A stretch of 64,000 nucleotides of DNA from Myxococcales bacterium. GTDB taxonomy: Bacteria > Myxococcota_A > Polyangia > Polyangiales > Polyangiaceae. A program made the position numbers and the translations under genes. Positions 51,798-57,978 of this stretch are shown here, piece by piece. The notes under the pieces were generated by a model, which saw nothing but the letters and a program-made list of their open reading frames with translations, was not told the DNA's origin and made no database searches. The stretch lies in NCBI GenBank assembly GCA_903642325.1, contig CAHJWM010000010.1, forward strand, positions 1-64,000, written 5' to 3'. How positions within the stretch are numbered: position 1 is the first letter of the stretch; every line of letters starts with the position of its first letter.

Positions 51798-52571
51798 ATG
51801 GACGCAGAGCGTTTGCGTGAGCTCTTGGAATCCGTGCGCAGCGGCTCGCTGTCCATCGATTCCGCGCTCGGGGCGTTGGCACGGCTGCCGTTCTCGGATC
51901 TGGGCTATGCGCGCGTCGATCATCACCGCGCGTTGCGCCAAGGCATCGCAGAGGTCGTGTTGGCCGAAGGTAAAGCGCCAGAGCACGTCGTCGGCATCGT
52001 CGAGCAGCTGATCGCCGCAGGCGACAACGTGCTCGTAACGCGGCTCGTCGGCCGCAACGCCGAGGCCCTCGAGGCAGCTCTGCCGAACCTCCGCTATTCG
52101 AAGCTCGGGCGCACCGCGAGCTTGGTGCAAAGGCCGATCCAGGAACGGCGAGGCCCCCCAGTGGCCATCGTCACGGCGGGCACGAGCGATATTCCGGTCG
52201 CGGAGGAGGCGTTCGAAACGCTGGCTATGTTCGGGATCCCGGCACAGCGCTACTTCGACGTCGGGGTCGCGGGCATTCACCGCCTGATGAGTCATTTGGA
52301 GGCGCTCAGTGCCGCGCCCGCGGTCATCGTAGTGGCCGGTATGGAGGGCGCGTTACCCAGCGTCGTCGGTGGCCTGATTGGTGCGCCGATCGTGGCCGTG
52401 CCCACCTCTGTCGGCTACGGCACCGCGCTGGCCGGTTTCACCGCGCTGTTCGGCATGCTGACGAGTTGCGCGTCGGGCATTACGGTGGTGAACATAGACA
52501 ACGGCTTTGGCGCGGCGATGGCCGTCGGCCGCATGATCGCGACGCAGCACAAGGCACAGGCGCCGGCGTGA
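51798..52571 (+). CDS. larB: Nickel pincer cofactor biosynthesis protein LarB
   Basis: A 257-residue protein of the AIR carboxylase-like family. LarB carboxylates and hydrolyses the pyridinium of NaAD to give pyridinium-3,5-dicarboxylate mononucleotide, the first step of the nickel-pincer nucleotide. Recognised motifs: 'VAIVTAGTSDIPVAEEA', 'FGIPAQRYFDVGVAGIHRL', 'VVAGMEGALPSVVGGLIGAPIVAVPTSVGYG' and 'VVNIDNGFGAAMAVGRM'. Its stop overlaps the larC start (GTGA). LarE and LarA are not in the window, so the rest of the pathway is encoded elsewhere or the cofactor is used by another enzyme. Confidence 0.94.
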   Translation: MDAERLRELLESVRSGSLSIDSALGALARLPFSDLGYARVDHHRALRQGIAEVVLAEGKAPEHVVGIVEQLIAAGDNVLVTRLVGRNAEALEAALPNLRYSKLGRTASLVQRPIQERRGPPVAIVTAGTSDIPVAEEAFETLAMFGIPAQRYFDVGVAGIHRLMSHLEALSAAPAVIVVAGMEGALPSVVGGLIGAPIVAVPTSVGYGTALAGFTALFGMLTSCASGITVVNIDNGFGAAMAVGRMIATQHKAQAPA

Positions 52572-53962
52572 AGCTGCCGGTCATCCCCCACGTCCTGGGC
52601 CCTGGCCATCATCACGAGCCTAGTGACGACGCTCATGGTCACGCGCACGAGCCTCCGGACGGCCATGGGCACACGCATGACCACGGGCACACGCATGCCC
52701 ACGGCCGAAACGTCGACGCCAAGGCGGTGATTTTGGCCGGCGATCCCGAGGCGCATCGCGCACCGCTTTCGCGGTACGCGGGCGCTGGCAAAGTGCTTTT
52801 TTTAGATGCATTCAGCGGCATTGCCGGCGACATGACGATCGCTGCGCTGGTCGACTTGGGCGTGCCCTTCGAGGTCGTGCAGGCGAGCGTAGGCACCCTC
52901 GGCCTAAGCGGTTTCGACCTGGAGCTCAGACGGGCTCGAGGGGGGGCCATCGGTGGAACCAAGTTCGACGTGCGCTTGGCATCCAGTCAGCCCGACCGGC
53001 GCTATCGCGCAATCGATGACTTGTTGGCGGCCTCCGTGCTGAGCGCGCCCATCAAGGCGCTGGCTCGCAAGATTTTTCTGCGCTTGGCCGAAGCGGAAGC
53101 GGAAGTGCATCGCAGCACGCTCGACGAAGTCGCATTCCACGAGGTCGGCGCGATCGACGCCCTCGTCGACATCGTGGGTGCTGCGGCCGGCTTCGAATTT
53201 CTGAGCGCGACCGTGCTGTCCTCCCCGTTGCCCATGGGTCGGGGCAGCGTAGTTTGCGCGCATGGCATCTTGCCGCTGCCCGCGCCCGCGACCGTCGCTT
53301 GTTTGCGCGGGGTCCCCACCGTCGATGCGGGCATCGAGGCCGAGTTGGTCACGCCCACCGGCGCCGCCATCGTTGCGAGCGTCGTGAGTGGCTTCGTGTC
53401 CTGGCCGGCGTTTGCCCCCGAGCGCGTGGGCTGGGGTTTCGGAACGCGAGGCCTGCCGGACCGCTTGAACGCCCTGCGCGTGGTGCTCGGCGACACGTCG
53501 CCGACCACCACGCAGGCGACGATTAACTCGGGCACGCACGTCGTGTTGGAGGCCAACGTGGACGACATGAGCGGTGAGCTAGCGGCGCATGCGCTGCGCG
53601 TGCTGCTCGAGAGCGGTGCGCTCGACGCTTGGGCGACGCCCATCGTCATGAAGAAGGGTCGCCCTGCGCTCACGCTGTCGGTGATTGCCGAGCTCGGCGC
53701 ACAGCATCGCCTAGCGGAAGTATTGCTACGCGAGACGAATTCTATTGGCGTTCGCCACAGGCCGGTGTCGCGCACCGAGCGGCCGCGCCGCCTCGTGGAG
53801 GTCAGCACCGAGTTCGGCGCGATCCCGATCAAGGTGAGTGAGGGCCCGTACGGCCCACCGCGCGTGAAGCCCGAGTTCGACGCGTGCGCCGCCGCCGCGC
53901 GCACGGCCGGCGTCGCGGTAGGATCGGTGATCGCAGCGGCGCTCGCCGCCTACGCGCGCTGA
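52568..53962 (+). CDS. larC: Nickel insertion protein LarC with His-rich N-terminus
   Basis: A 464-residue LarC, which inserts nickel into the pincer nucleotide (CTP-dependent cyclometallase). After the GTG start overlapping larB, residues 14-45 hold 13 His with Gly, Asp and Pro, a nickel-binding stretch rare in short homologues. The LarC core starts at about residue 75 with 'KVLFLDAFSGIAGDMTIAAL' and continues with 'FHEVGAIDALVDIVG', 'PLPAPATVACLRG' and the C-terminal 'VLEANVDDMSGELAAHAL' and 'EVLLRETNSIGVRH'. Both LarC1 and LarC2 parts are in one ORF, so the programmed frameshift seen in Lactobacillus is not required here. Confidence 0.94.
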   Translation: MKLPVIPHVLGPGHHHEPSDDAHGHAHEPPDGHGHTHDHGHTHAHGRNVDAKAVILAGDPEAHRAPLSRYAGAGKVLFLDAFSGIAGDMTIAALVDLGVPFEVVQASVGTLGLSGFDLELRRARGGAIGGTKFDVRLASSQPDRRYRAIDDLLAASVLSAPIKALARKIFLRLAEAEAEVHRSTLDEVAFHEVGAIDALVDIVGAAAGFEFLSATVLSSPLPMGRGSVVCAHGILPLPAPATVACLRGVPTVDAGIEAELVTPTGAAIVASVVSGFVSWPAFAPERVGWGFGTRGLPDRLNALRVVLGDTSPTTTQATINSGTHVVLEANVDDMSGELAAHALRVLLESGALDAWATPIVMKKGRPALTLSVIAELGAQHRLAEVLLRETNSIGVRHRPVSRTERPRRLVEVSTEFGAIPIKVSEGPYGPPRVKPEFDACAAAARTAGVAVGSVIAAALAAYAR

Positions 53963-53970
53963 GGCTCGGC

Positions 53971-54612
53971 TCAATCCGGTCGCTCGAGCCGAAAGCCCGC
54001 GGCCTCCCAGCCCAGCACGCCGCCTTCCAAGAAGGCCACCGGCACGCCTTGCTCGGCAAGCTTGGCGGCCAGATCTTTCGTTTGGTCCCCTGAACGACAA
54101 TAAATCACGGGAGTCGCGGGCAACATGTGGAGCTCGGCCAGCCGCGTCTCGATATCCGCCGCCGGCATGTTGACCGCGCCGGGCAGGTGCGCGCGCTTGA
54201 ACACGGCGGCTTCGCGGGTGTCGACCGTGCACACGCGCCCTTCTTTGAGCAGCGCCGCCAGCTCCTCGGGCTTGATGGCGCCCTCGGCCCGCGGCAAGAA
54301 CGGGTCGATCATGTCCCGGAGCTCACGTCGCTGTACTGCGCCGACCTTGCCCCCAACCGGCCGGCCTTGGTGAAAGACCACGAACGTGGGCACCGACTGC
54401 ACGCCCATTTGACGAGCGATCAGCGGCGAACGGTCGATGTCGACGGTCACGACCTTGGCTTTACCCTTCAGCTCGCTCGCCAGAGCCATGAGCTCCGGGA
54501 GCATGGTCTTACAGGGCCCGCACCACTCTGCGCCGAACTCGACCAGCACCGGCTCTTCGCTGAGCAACACCTCTTGTTCGAAATTCTTTTCCGTAACCGT
54601 AGGCAGGGGCAT
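53971..54612 (-). CDS. Thioredoxin-rhodanese fusion protein
   Basis: A 213-residue two-domain protein. Residues 1-105 are a thioredoxin with the WCGPC active site (30-34), a 'VDIDRSPLIARQMGVQSVPTF' block with the cis-Pro, and normal length. Residues 110-210 are a rhodanese domain with the 'DTREAAVFKRAHLPGAVNMP' start and the active Cys172 in 'IYCRSGDQTKDLA'. It may handle sulphur transfer or redox of persulphides. The fusion is unusual; a single ORF supports it. It converges with larC and does not obviously belong to a larger operon. Both active sites appear intact. Confidence 0.88.
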   Translation of the reverse strand: MPLPTVTEKNFEQEVLLSEEPVLVEFGAEWCGPCKTMLPELMALASELKGKAKVVTVDIDRSPLIARQMGVQSVPTFVVFHQGRPVGGKVGAVQRRELRDMIDPFLPRAEGAIKPEELAALLKEGRVCTVDTREAAVFKRAHLPGAVNMPAADIETRLAELHMLPATPVIYCRSGDQTKDLAAKLAEQGVPVAFLEGGVLGWEAAGFRLERPD

Positions 54613-54716: not shown

Positions 54717-55313
54717 CTAAATCGCGCGTTGCTGGCGAAAGACCCGCTGCAACAGCACGGTCAGGGCGACGACCGAGCTCGCCGCCAGCACGGTCGCCAG
54801 GGGGTCGAGCGGGCGCGCACCGAGCACGATGCCCCAGGTGGGCAGCGCCGCAGCCGGACGCAAGCCGGCCTGGGTGAGGCCGGCGTCGAGGGCCGTGAGC
54901 CAGGCCACGCCGAAGGAAGCGCTGACCAGCAACGGCCCGAGCGCTGCGCGCAATCGCCGCCGCGAAAAGGCTGGGCGTGACGAGTGATGCCCAGGAGGGC
55001 CGCTCGCCGAGGACTCTTCGTCCTCCAACCTGACGAGCTCGCAGCGCAGCAGCCAGGCCTGCTGGAGCCCGCGCAACGCTCCCAACGCGCAAACGTAGCT
55101 CAGGCTGCGGCCGGCCCAAGCCCACAGGACGGCGGCCACGAACAACGTCGGTAGAGAGCTGACCAAGTCACACGCGAAGCGCAGCGCGGTGTCTAGGCTC
55201 GGCGGACCGCTCGCGGCCAGTGCGCCCAACGGCAGCGCTACTAAGAACGCCACGGCGATGATCAACGACCCCGCAAGCGCCGCGAATCCGAGCCCGTGCA
55301 CGTAGTCGGTCAT
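54717..55313 (-). CDS. Oligopeptide-type ABC permease, OppC/DppC-like
   Basis: A 198-residue protein with four or five membrane segments. Its C-terminal part, 'ALDAGLTQAGLRPAAALPTWGIVLGARPL', matches the 'EA.LSFLGLG...PTWG' block of DppC-type permeases; the rest is short, lacking the large N-terminal region and the canonical EAA loop (the helix 'LRGLQQAWLLRCELVRLEDE' stands in its place). It overlaps the preceding gene by ATGA, so the pair forms a heterodimer. No ATPase or binding protein is adjacent, and the degraded EAA region raises doubt about coupling to an ATPase. Confidence 0.65.
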   Translation of the reverse strand: MTDYVHGLGFAALAGSLIIAVAFLVALPLGALAASGPPSLDTALRFACDLVSSLPTLFVAAVLWAWAGRSLSYVCALGALRGLQQAWLLRCELVRLEDEESSASGPPGHHSSRPAFSRRRLRAALGPLLVSASFGVAWLTALDAGLTQAGLRPAAALPTWGIVLGARPLDPLATVLAASSVVALTVLLQRVFRQQRAI

Positions 55314-56716
55314 CTTCGACTCGCCGCGTGCGGCGCGGCACGCGGCCGAACTAGGTCGGCCGCTTGTCGAAGGACCAGCGTTACCAATGCAAGGGTCAAT
55401 GACGCCGCCATCCAGGCGTTCACGTCGCCTGACGCGAGGGCCAATGCCGCGCTGCGCCCCACGCCTGGCAATCGAAAGCCGAGCTCGACCAGCACGATTG
55501 CGCTGAGAACAATCGGCGGATAGGTCGCACCGAGGGGCGCGGATACGGAAAAGGCCGCCGTCAGGCTGGACCTGGGACGCGCCGTCAGCTTCGATCGCGC
55601 GAGATGCCGGGAAACCCAACCGGCGGTCGCGAACATGACCAAGCACGCGGCGGTTCCAAGCCCGGCTCCGCGATCAGCCAAGACACTCACGAGAGTCGCA
55701 CAAGGTATGGCAGCTAGCGCGGTGCCCGTCAGCAAGGAAGCTGAGCGCGGCACGCACGCCGTGCGGCTGCGCTCGAAGCGCGACCAGACGACGCCCAGCG
55801 TGAAGCCGCCACCCAGGCCGATCAACAACAGACAGGCGGTCGTGACGAAGCCCCGCTGGATCAGGCTCAGTGCCGATTCACCGTTACTCGTGCGCCCCAG
55901 GCCCCCACGCAGCACCGCCGCCAACCACTTGCCGTACCGTGTTTCGACGAACGTCGCCGCCAACCGGCGCGGGCCGTCGAGCGCCACGTATTCGCTACCA
56001 TGCACGGCCCAGAAGTCGCGCCACGTGTCGGCCGCGCGCTGCGCGGCCGCGACATCAGCGATCGGCAGGGGGCGCTCCGGCAATTCTGTCACGTGCGAGA
56101 GCACCGAGCTCAGGCGCTGCACGCGCGCGATATCCGCCTCGTTTCGGACCTTTCCGAGCGCCTCGATCAGCGCCGGCATCGCCAAGGTATCGACATGAAT
56201 AAGGTCTTCGCGGCGCAATGCGAGCGAGCGTTCTGCCAAACGCGCGGTCAAATGCCGGACAACGGCAACGCGGAAATCGATGGCTCGGTCTTGCCAGAAT
56301 CTCGTCCAAAACAGCACGGACTGCGCGCCGTCCCGGAGCTCGTCAGCGCTCGCAACGCCCATTCGGACGGCGACGGGGGTGAGGGCGAGAGCGACTCGTT
56401 CCCGGCTTTGCGGCTCCAGCGAGTCGAGCGCCGGCAGGACATACGGTAGCGCTGCACCACCCAAACGTGCCAAGTCGAGCGTCGCCGCGGCCGCCGCCCG
56501 CCCGCCGCGCGCGATGTGCTGCACGTCGGCTGCCGCCAACTCACGCACCCCGGTGGGATGCGCATTGAAAAAGAGCGGAAGCGCGGCAAACGGACTCTGC
56601 TGGACCGCGGGGCGGTGCGCGCCGTACGTCACAACGGCCCAAAGCATGCCAGCGGAAGCCGCGGTCAGGGTGAGGGCGAGCCCGAGCATTCTTCGGATCG
56701 CGGCCCGCGCGGTCAA
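55310..56716 (-). CDS. OppB/DppB-like permease with a large repeat insert
   Basis: A 468-residue protein. It starts with one membrane segment (about 9-31). Residues about 55-255 form a helical extracytoplasmic region with repeats like 'DLARLGGAALPYVLPALDSL', 'AMPALIEALGKVRN' and 'RLSSVLSHVTELP', typical of HEAT-like repeats. From 260 the normal permease continues: 'RYGKWLAAVLRGGLGRTSNG' aligns with the 'Y..wl...l.GDlG.S' signature, then five membrane segments to the end. The usual DppB loop between segments 1 and 2 is only about 60-80 residues, so this insert is the main oddity. It overlaps the OppC-like gene. Confidence 0.7.
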   Translation of the reverse strand: MTARAAIRRMLGLALTLTAASAGMLWAVVTYGAHRPAVQQSPFAALPLFFNAHPTGVRELAAADVQHIARGGRAAAAATLDLARLGGAALPYVLPALDSLEPQSRERVALALTPVAVRMGVASADELRDGAQSVLFWTRFWQDRAIDFRVAVVRHLTARLAERSLALRREDLIHVDTLAMPALIEALGKVRNEADIARVQRLSSVLSHVTELPERPLPIADVAAAQRAADTWRDFWAVHGSEYVALDGPRRLAATFVETRYGKWLAAVLRGGLGRTSNGESALSLIQRGFVTTACLLLIGLGGGFTLGVVWSRFERSRTACVPRSASLLTGTALAAIPCATLVSVLADRGAGLGTAACLVMFATAGWVSRHLARSKLTARPRSSLTAAFSVSAPLGATYPPIVLSAIVLVELGFRLPGVGRSAALALASGDVNAWMAASLTLALVTLVLRQAADLVRPRAAPHAASRR

Positions 56717-56742: not shown

Positions 56743-57978
56743 TCAACGAACGAGTAGATACCCCGCCAAGGCTACGAACAGCATCGCGCCGAGGACCATG
56801 ATACCGACGAGCGACGGTGGCAGACCGCTAGTCGGAATCGAGACCGGCTCGTTGTCGATGGTGTACGAAGGGGGCGCTCCTGAAGCACGCGGACCGGCCG
56901 GCATCGTCGCAGGCAAGACCCCAGCCAGAGGATTGACCGCGCCGGCGATGGTGTGACCGACCCGCGCTCGACGCGATTCCCGCATCGTTTCGTCACTTGC
57001 GGGCTCGTCCGTCTCGTACGGGCGCTGGGTCACGGCGGGAGCGCGCACCGTGGTGTCCACGGGCGACTCGGGCAGCGCGTACTTCTGATAGGCGACCCTC
57101 GCTTCCGAGGAAAACGGCCGCAGGTTCGGCCCGTCGAACTCCGCAACGATCACCGTGATGTTGTCGTGACCGCCCGCCCGATTTGCGCGCTCGGTGAGCT
57201 CCCGACATGCCTCTAGCGAGTCGCGAGTGTTGAGCAGCACCTCGCGCATCTCCTCCCCCCGAATCATGCCGGACAGCCCATCGGAGCAGAGCAGCAAGCG
57301 ATCGCCCTGACACAAATCCACATAGGTAAGATCCACCTGCACCGTTTCGGCTGTGCCGAGCGCCTGCAAGATGATGTTGTTGTGTTCGAACGTCTCGGCC
57401 TCTTCTTCAGTCAGTTGGCCTGCTTCGATCAGCTGATTGACCAAAGATTGATCGCGGCTCACCTGCGTGAAGCGATCACCGCGCAGCACGTACGCGCGAC
57501 TATCCCCAACTTGCGCAACGAACAGACGCGCGTCCATCAAGGCGGCGATCGTGGCGGTCGTGCCCATGCCGCGTCGCGTGCGGTCAGCGCGCGCCTCATT
57601 GAAAATCCGGATGCCGGCCTCCTCGACCGCTTGAACCAAGCGGCGAGCGAGGTCATCGTGGTTGAGCAGAGCCTCACCCTGCACCAATTTTTCGTAGATG
57701 ATGTCGACGGCGAGCTGGCTTGCGACCTCGCCCGCCGCCGCGCCGCCCATGCCGTCGCACACGCCGAGCAAGGTCCCGCGGTTGCCCACCGGTTGCTCGC
57801 GGTCGCCCTCCATGAGGCTCCGGGTCCTGCGAGTCAGGTCGGCAATGAGGAAGTTGTCCTCATTGTGTTCGCGAATTTGACCCACATCCGTGCGGCCGAA
57901 CACGCGCAGCTTCAGGGTTGCGTCGAGCGGGCCGGCGGGGCTCGACGCGCTGAGGGCGCCCGAAGCGTTGTCAGTCAT
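56743..57978 (-). CDS. PP2C-family Ser/Thr phosphatase, membrane anchored
   Basis: A 411-residue PPM-type phosphatase. The catalytic domain occupies about residues 25-280 with the metal-binding Asp in 'REHNEDNF', 'VCDGMGGAAAGE', 'FVAQVGDSRAYVLRGDRF', 'CSDGLSGMI' and 'GGHDNITVIV', so all expected acidic ligands are present. A disordered Pro/Thr/Ala linker leads to a C-terminal membrane segment at about 388-408. It should reverse Ser/Thr kinase phosphorylation. It overlaps the FHA gene by ATGA, which links phosphatase and phosphothreonine reader. It is a natural counterpart of the kinase at 3.4 kb, though not adjacent. Confidence 0.92.
   Translation of the reverse strand: MTDNASGALSASSPAGPLDATLKLRVFGRTDVGQIREHNEDNFLIADLTRRTRSLMEGDREQPVGNRGTLLGVCDGMGGAAAGEVASQLAVDIIYEKLVQGEALLNHDDLARRLVQAVEEAGIRIFNEARADRTRRGMGTTATIAALMDARLFVAQVGDSRAYVLRGDRFTQVSRDQSLVNQLIEAGQLTEEEAETFEHNNIILQALGTAETVQVDLTYVDLCQGDRLLLCSDGLSGMIRGEEMREVLLNTRDSLEACRELTERANRAGGHDNITVIVAEFDGPNLRPFSSEARVAYQKYALPESPVDTTVRAPAVTQRPYETDEPASDETMRESRRARVGHTIAGAVNPLAGVLPATMPAGPRASGAPPSYTIDNEPVSIPTSGLPPSLVGIMVLGAMLFVALAGYLLVR

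Follow-up and report, generated by a model that had tools for sequence, protein, structure and literature searches.

What purpose does a permease pair serve when neither an ATPase nor a binding protein is encoded beside it? This question is raised by two adjoining genes at positions 54717-56716 of the window, by which we mean the whole 64,000-nucleotide stretch of Myxococcales DNA that was analysed. Sequence comparisons lend good support to the view that the pair, a DppB/OppB-like protein (B) and a DppC/OppC-like partner (C), is the uncoupled descendant of a genuine ABC importer. Its relatives provide a near-stepwise record of how such an importer was stripped of its partners and its coupling elements, with constraint persisting on a single periplasmic domain, making it testable whether importer membrane domains get reused as signalling or scaffold proteins.

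Gene order and the helical insert

Both reading frames of the preliminary description and their outer limits proved exact. The B gene (55310-56716, reverse strand) starts with TTG and encodes a DppB/OppB-derived membrane protein of 468 aa, whose assignment draws on its homologues and on an AF2 model closest to OppB/DppB. The C gene (54717-55313, reverse strand), with an ATG at 55313 that overlaps the B stop codon (ATGA), encodes a DppC/OppC-derived partner of 198 aa that lacks the N-terminal TM1 segment. Directly upstream of B, across a gap of 26 bp, we detected a gene for a PP2C-type phosphatase whose C-terminal segment is hydrophobic (56743-57978, reverse strand; PF13672/PF00481), which is overlapped by a gene for a protein with zinc ribbons (PF12773) and two FHA stretches (PF00498; 57975-59342, reverse strand). 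Downstream of C lies a gene for a thioredoxin-rhodanese protein (53971-54612, reverse strand; PF00085, PF00581), in a neighbourhood conserved by synteny. Two genes at 51798-53962, presumably related to LarB and LarC, which they resemble, are on the strand opposite to the operon and conserved near it. A promoter and terminator scan at the locus gave a result no better than shuffled sequence. No ATPase or SBP gene was present among the genes neighbouring B and C, as the preliminary description had observed, and across the genome the SBP_bac_5 and oligo_HPY matches all fell on contigs other than the window's own (C10).

The best conserved part of B is a periplasmic HEAT-like insert of about 230 residues between TM1 and TM2 (residues 46-276; 55889-56581, reverse strand), recognised by an insert profile. 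Of the 200-residue HEAT-like insert described previously, the position was upheld, while the length is nearer 230 residues and HEAT denotes a likeness. The AF2 model of B, built with three relatives (mean pLDDT 63, pTM 0.40), places TM1 first, then an all-helical insert at 57-257 and several long helices, and a model of the insert alone was also all-helical (pLDDT 68). Compared with HEAT/TOG structures, the insert alone showed a weak likeness over its first ~100 residues (best Z 6.7) that did not extend to an assignment of its second half, and a Foldseek search with its model returned no E value below 0.001 (best 0.17). With a profile of 20 inserts, alphaReps and engineered repeat proteins came up as marginal matches (best E 0.001), and Pfam HEAT models matched two relatives below threshold. 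These models and searches weakly suggest a domain that is HEAT-like by similarity, rather than a proven HEAT fold.

The position of the insert is better defined. L187, the B protein of a relative with a full operon, can be aligned with E. coli DppB outside the insert, following it to residue 63 and resuming at residue 67 with the insert between. In E. coli, the scoop motif of DppB is periplasmic and binds the DppA cleft, and the region 32-62 is invisible without DppA (PMC12136057, in the portion of the paper available). Because the alignment breaks at 63/67 and the scoop occupies 32-62, the insert follows immediately on the scoop, on the side of B that faces the binding protein. It had no sequence match among known periplasmic loops, though it sits within the loop that holds the DppB scoop motif. 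The insert alone also had no match on plasmids outside the phylum. Full-length B matched 3325 plasmid records, one of which covered at least 80% of the query; in the one frame examined on that record, an SBP reading frame, the profile found no insert. The second long plasmid match of full-length B is an annotated 311-aa permease.

The permease core and its intact relatives

The whole of B was structurally closest to M. tuberculosis OppB (8j5q_B; Z 11.3, rmsd 4.7, 209 aligned), with further matches to E. coli OppB (8z21_A; Z 10.0) and M. tuberculosis DppB (8wda_B; Z 8.6), and several membrane helices are retained according to both hydropathy and the AF2 model. Together with the graded series of homologues described below, these matches establish common descent with an Opp/Dpp-type importer and the overall B fold. 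A Pfam scan of B yielded no match, including to BPD_transp_1 (PF00528), and C scored 17.6 bits against that model, below the curated cut-off of 26.4 that 10 of 10 relatives scanned passed. NCBIfam gave weak, sub-threshold matches to peptide/nickel permeases for both proteins, and the core of B reached 7.5 bits against a profile of the four canonical B permeases from its own genome. In the E. coli system, the EAA loops form the helices through which the permease couples to DppD and DppF (PMC12136057, same portion). The former coupling loop of B, at approximately residues 366-400 (55517-55621, reverse strand; range estimated from the alignment), keeps 4 of 10 key residues, where EAA scores here and below rest on one MAFFT alignment. 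The loop of C is likewise degraded in the C alignment, bearing out the earlier picture of a short partner with a degraded EAA loop.

Relatives of B are present in 117 of the 289 genomes of the window's class, which led us to reject a chance or mis-called reading frame, and the architecture recurs in full operons in other classes. When 377 genomes from across the phylum were searched with a profile, 123 gave a match, those outside the class being mostly partial. The set of loci was drawn from 72 with a B frame, of which 52 were used besides the window after leaving out 15 repeats of a locus, three cut by a contig end and two in which no start codon was found; most of the genomes are drafts, and their kinship labels are tool-assigned.

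In other classes of the phylum, 16 of the 18 loci fetched had complete SBP-B-C-D-F operons around an insert-bearing B, and B scored 9-10 of 10 EAA residues in the 12 of these 18 loci that were aligned. These intact, apparently coupled members are natural controls. Sister families of the window's class have the order SBP-B-C, with the SBP gene within 300 nt upstream of B in all 11 loci and EAA scores of 9-10 in their B genes. An ATPase encoded just beyond the pair, which the preliminary description regarded as counting against its interpretation, is thus absent at the window and present in relatives from other classes. Having no ATPase anywhere was rejected as a trait of the whole group of insert-bearing permeases, in view of the full operons and of free D-F pairs.

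Loss of coupling features in the window's family

The window's family contributed 35 B genes, with EAA scores of 9-10 in 13, 8 in one and at most 7 in 21, and no SBP gene was found beside B in this family. A PP2C gene was located no more than 300 nt upstream of B in 19 of the 21 loci with scores of at most 7, in the one with a score of 8 and in a single locus among the 13 with scores of at least 9 (Fisher P 2e-6, uncorrected for relatedness). The stretch linking TM1 to the insert, which represents the scoop region, measured 32-39 residues at scores of at least 9 and 7-32 residues (median 16) at scores of at most 7; with 18 residues, the linker of the window's B points to scoop loss.

Constraint on the core weakened along with the EAA loop. 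Median core scores against the canonical B profile were 179 bits in a group of 14 sequences (12 from other classes, the group also counting L199 and L200, which belong to the window's class), 173 in the 11 SBP-linked genes, 125 at EAA scores of at least 9, 42 at scores of at most 7 and 12 in family f4. Mean core minus insert identity moved from +0.16 in SBP-linked genes to -0.01 at scores of at least 9 and -0.16 at scores of at most 7, with f4 running opposite to this trend (+0.07). The core was the better conserved part in 53 of 55 SBP-linked pairs, versus 1 of 210 pairs at scores of at most 7.

The C loop was intact in many loci with a B score of 5 to 7 but lost in the window and in both of the fused genes that were aligned. 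Decay thus appears to have begun with B, and the loci that retain an intact C loop may be coupled through one half. On the insert tree, in which several nodes are weakly supported, the state changes between intact and degraded about five times, versus 21 in shuffles. One locus (L036) has an adjacent PP2C gene and a B score of 10, so adjacency alone is no sign of uncoupling; in two more (L033 and L038) the PP2C gene lies about 2.8 kb upstream of a B that scores 10, and from these three loci the proximity of PP2C may be older than EAA loss. Two genes, one for a trypsin-like and one for an FHA-trypsin protein, occur between PP2C and B in another locus (L069:10613-13110), and other genes are also found between the two in L060 and L063.

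Within the window's genus, all eight genomes carry B, in each case with no internal stop codon; the nearest relative found was 48% identical to the window's B over residues 2-303. Identity to the window was 47-53% for the insert, whereas the core did not exceed 40% where a match could be detected; in the genomes that could be read, C was 30-36% and PP2C 80-86% identical. A single open frame of 711-752 codons encodes B and C as a fusion in four of the seven readable genus genomes (L029, L034, L152 and L153). Such rapid change in the membrane core and in C beside a slowly changing PP2C would suit a relic in decay, a former importer whose function is gone and which is held for now by its operon position, and B was absent from six genomes of the family in our sample. 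Fast core divergence also fits simple decay. However, an uninterrupted frame throughout the genus, an insert far better kept than the core and EAA losses that recur without gene loss all speak against a relic, and we regard it as unlikely.

Possible roles and known systems

The pair might instead still function as an ABC importer, borrowing D/F ATPases and an SBP encoded elsewhere via divergent coupling loops. Five sister-family genomes (G032, G014, G008, G044 and G026) are suggestive of this, each having a single SBP_bac_5 gene that adjoins the insert-bearing B, no PF19300 permease and one oligo_HPY ATPase pair elsewhere; G051 is an exception, with one SBP and no oligo_HPY match in a genome that is 89% complete. 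The D-F pair was apart from permeases and SBPs in all 20 neighbourhoods fetched, save one noise-level SBP frame in L120; from the 43 genomes searched, these were picked because they have only one pair, and some of the neighbourhoods run out at a contig edge. A precedent exists in the Borrelia Opp system, for which the available portion of PMC5736914 describes two permease pairs and one ATPase pair. The window genome itself has an SBP gene away from permeases (C65:18051-19124), with no Opp/Dpp-type permease in the stretch fetched (L107).

Several findings weigh against borrowing at the window, beginning with the loss of both EAA loops. Every D-F set of the window genome, a draft assembly from which a further pair may be missing, sits with SBP and permease genes, and all seven of its oligo_HPY matches are on contigs C22, C38 and C25. 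In the SBP tree, the C65 protein groups as sister with the SBP from the operon on C38 and falls outside the insert-linked clade. In seven of the eight genus genomes all oligo_HPY ATPases were on SBP-bearing contigs, which leaves these seven with no evident free D-F pair, while the eighth (G290) has one pair on a contig without an SBP. We also detected a conserved clade of SBP_bac_5 genes (L130-L145) apart from insert-bearing B genes in 16 genomes fetched from families f1, f4 and f6. We rejected these orphans as the lost partner by descent, since their clade is apart from the insert-linked SBPs, though they could serve as a replacement partner. Overall, we consider a borrowing importer quite doubtful. 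An ATP-independent channel or facilitator, in which B and C make up a passive pore and the HEAT-like domain acts as its gate, would suit the retained membrane helices, but the core is the least conserved part of the protein, unlike a conserved pathway, and this reading strikes us as very improbable.

Taken together, common descent, conservation of the insert, loss of coupling features and a place behind the FHA-PP2C genes characterise the pair on the basis of sequence, and the transporter origin and uncoupling put forward in the preliminary description have stood up, given the intact relatives and the loss of the EAA loops, of the adjacent SBP and, judging by linker length, of most of the scoop region. 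Its proposal of a sensor or scaffold role, here linked to PP2C and FHA, is plausible from the operon context and from the part of B that was conserved; the conserved FHA-PP2C context and selective conservation of the insert are the only positive pointers to it. We therefore hold with about even confidence that the pair is an Opp/Dpp descendant, uncoupled from ATP and SBP, that kept its HEAT-like domain and membrane anchor and may act in signalling. The ancestor would have been an Opp/Dpp-type peptide importer whose B carried a HEAT-like periplasmic domain just after the scoop motif. Both EAA loops, the neighbouring SBP gene and most of the scoop region would then have disappeared from the window's lineage, which kept the HEAT-like domain and the B-C membrane anchor, a single chain in sister species. 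The domain may bind a ligand or a protein in the periplasm or envelope, and the anchor formed by B and C may pass or localise that signal for the co-encoded PP2C phosphatase, itself probably membrane-anchored, and the FHA protein.

A second, separate uncoupled form is found in f4, where five loci (L075, L076, L077, L078 and L081) have a lone insert-bearing B with a degraded EAA loop and a conserved core, and no C gene was found within the 19.5 kb fetched in any of the five. With f4 as a second case, importer permeases may have been turned more than once in this phylum into ATPase-free periplasmic receptors, an envelope signal being picked up by the HEAT-like domain and passed on through the former permease pair to the FHA-PP2C module. 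We offer this broader idea tentatively, as a possibility that we would not expect to hold.

In the open-licence literature, we found no paper on a HEAT-like insert beside the scoop motif of a peptide importer, and searches there for HEAT repeats with OppB/DppB, FHA or PP2C with a permease, orphan permease sensors and Polyangiales peptide permeases returned nothing that matched this architecture. HEAT-like repeat proteins such as CpcE/CpcF, TOG domains, SF3B1 and importin-beta share paired helices with the first ~100 residues of the insert, though every structure search fell below significance. DppB and OppB of type I peptide importers (E. coli DppBCDF, M. tuberculosis OppABCD) are built along the same lines, with TM1 followed by a periplasmic loop and then the core. 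The window's B differs from them in its helical insert after the scoop position, and the window in its shortened scoop region, degraded EAA loops and lack of a nearby SBP or ATPase. The P2 loop of MalF, in the maltose importer, is another large periplasmic permease insert at the binding-protein face; its position and fold differ from those of the window's insert, and MalF remains coupled to its ATPase.
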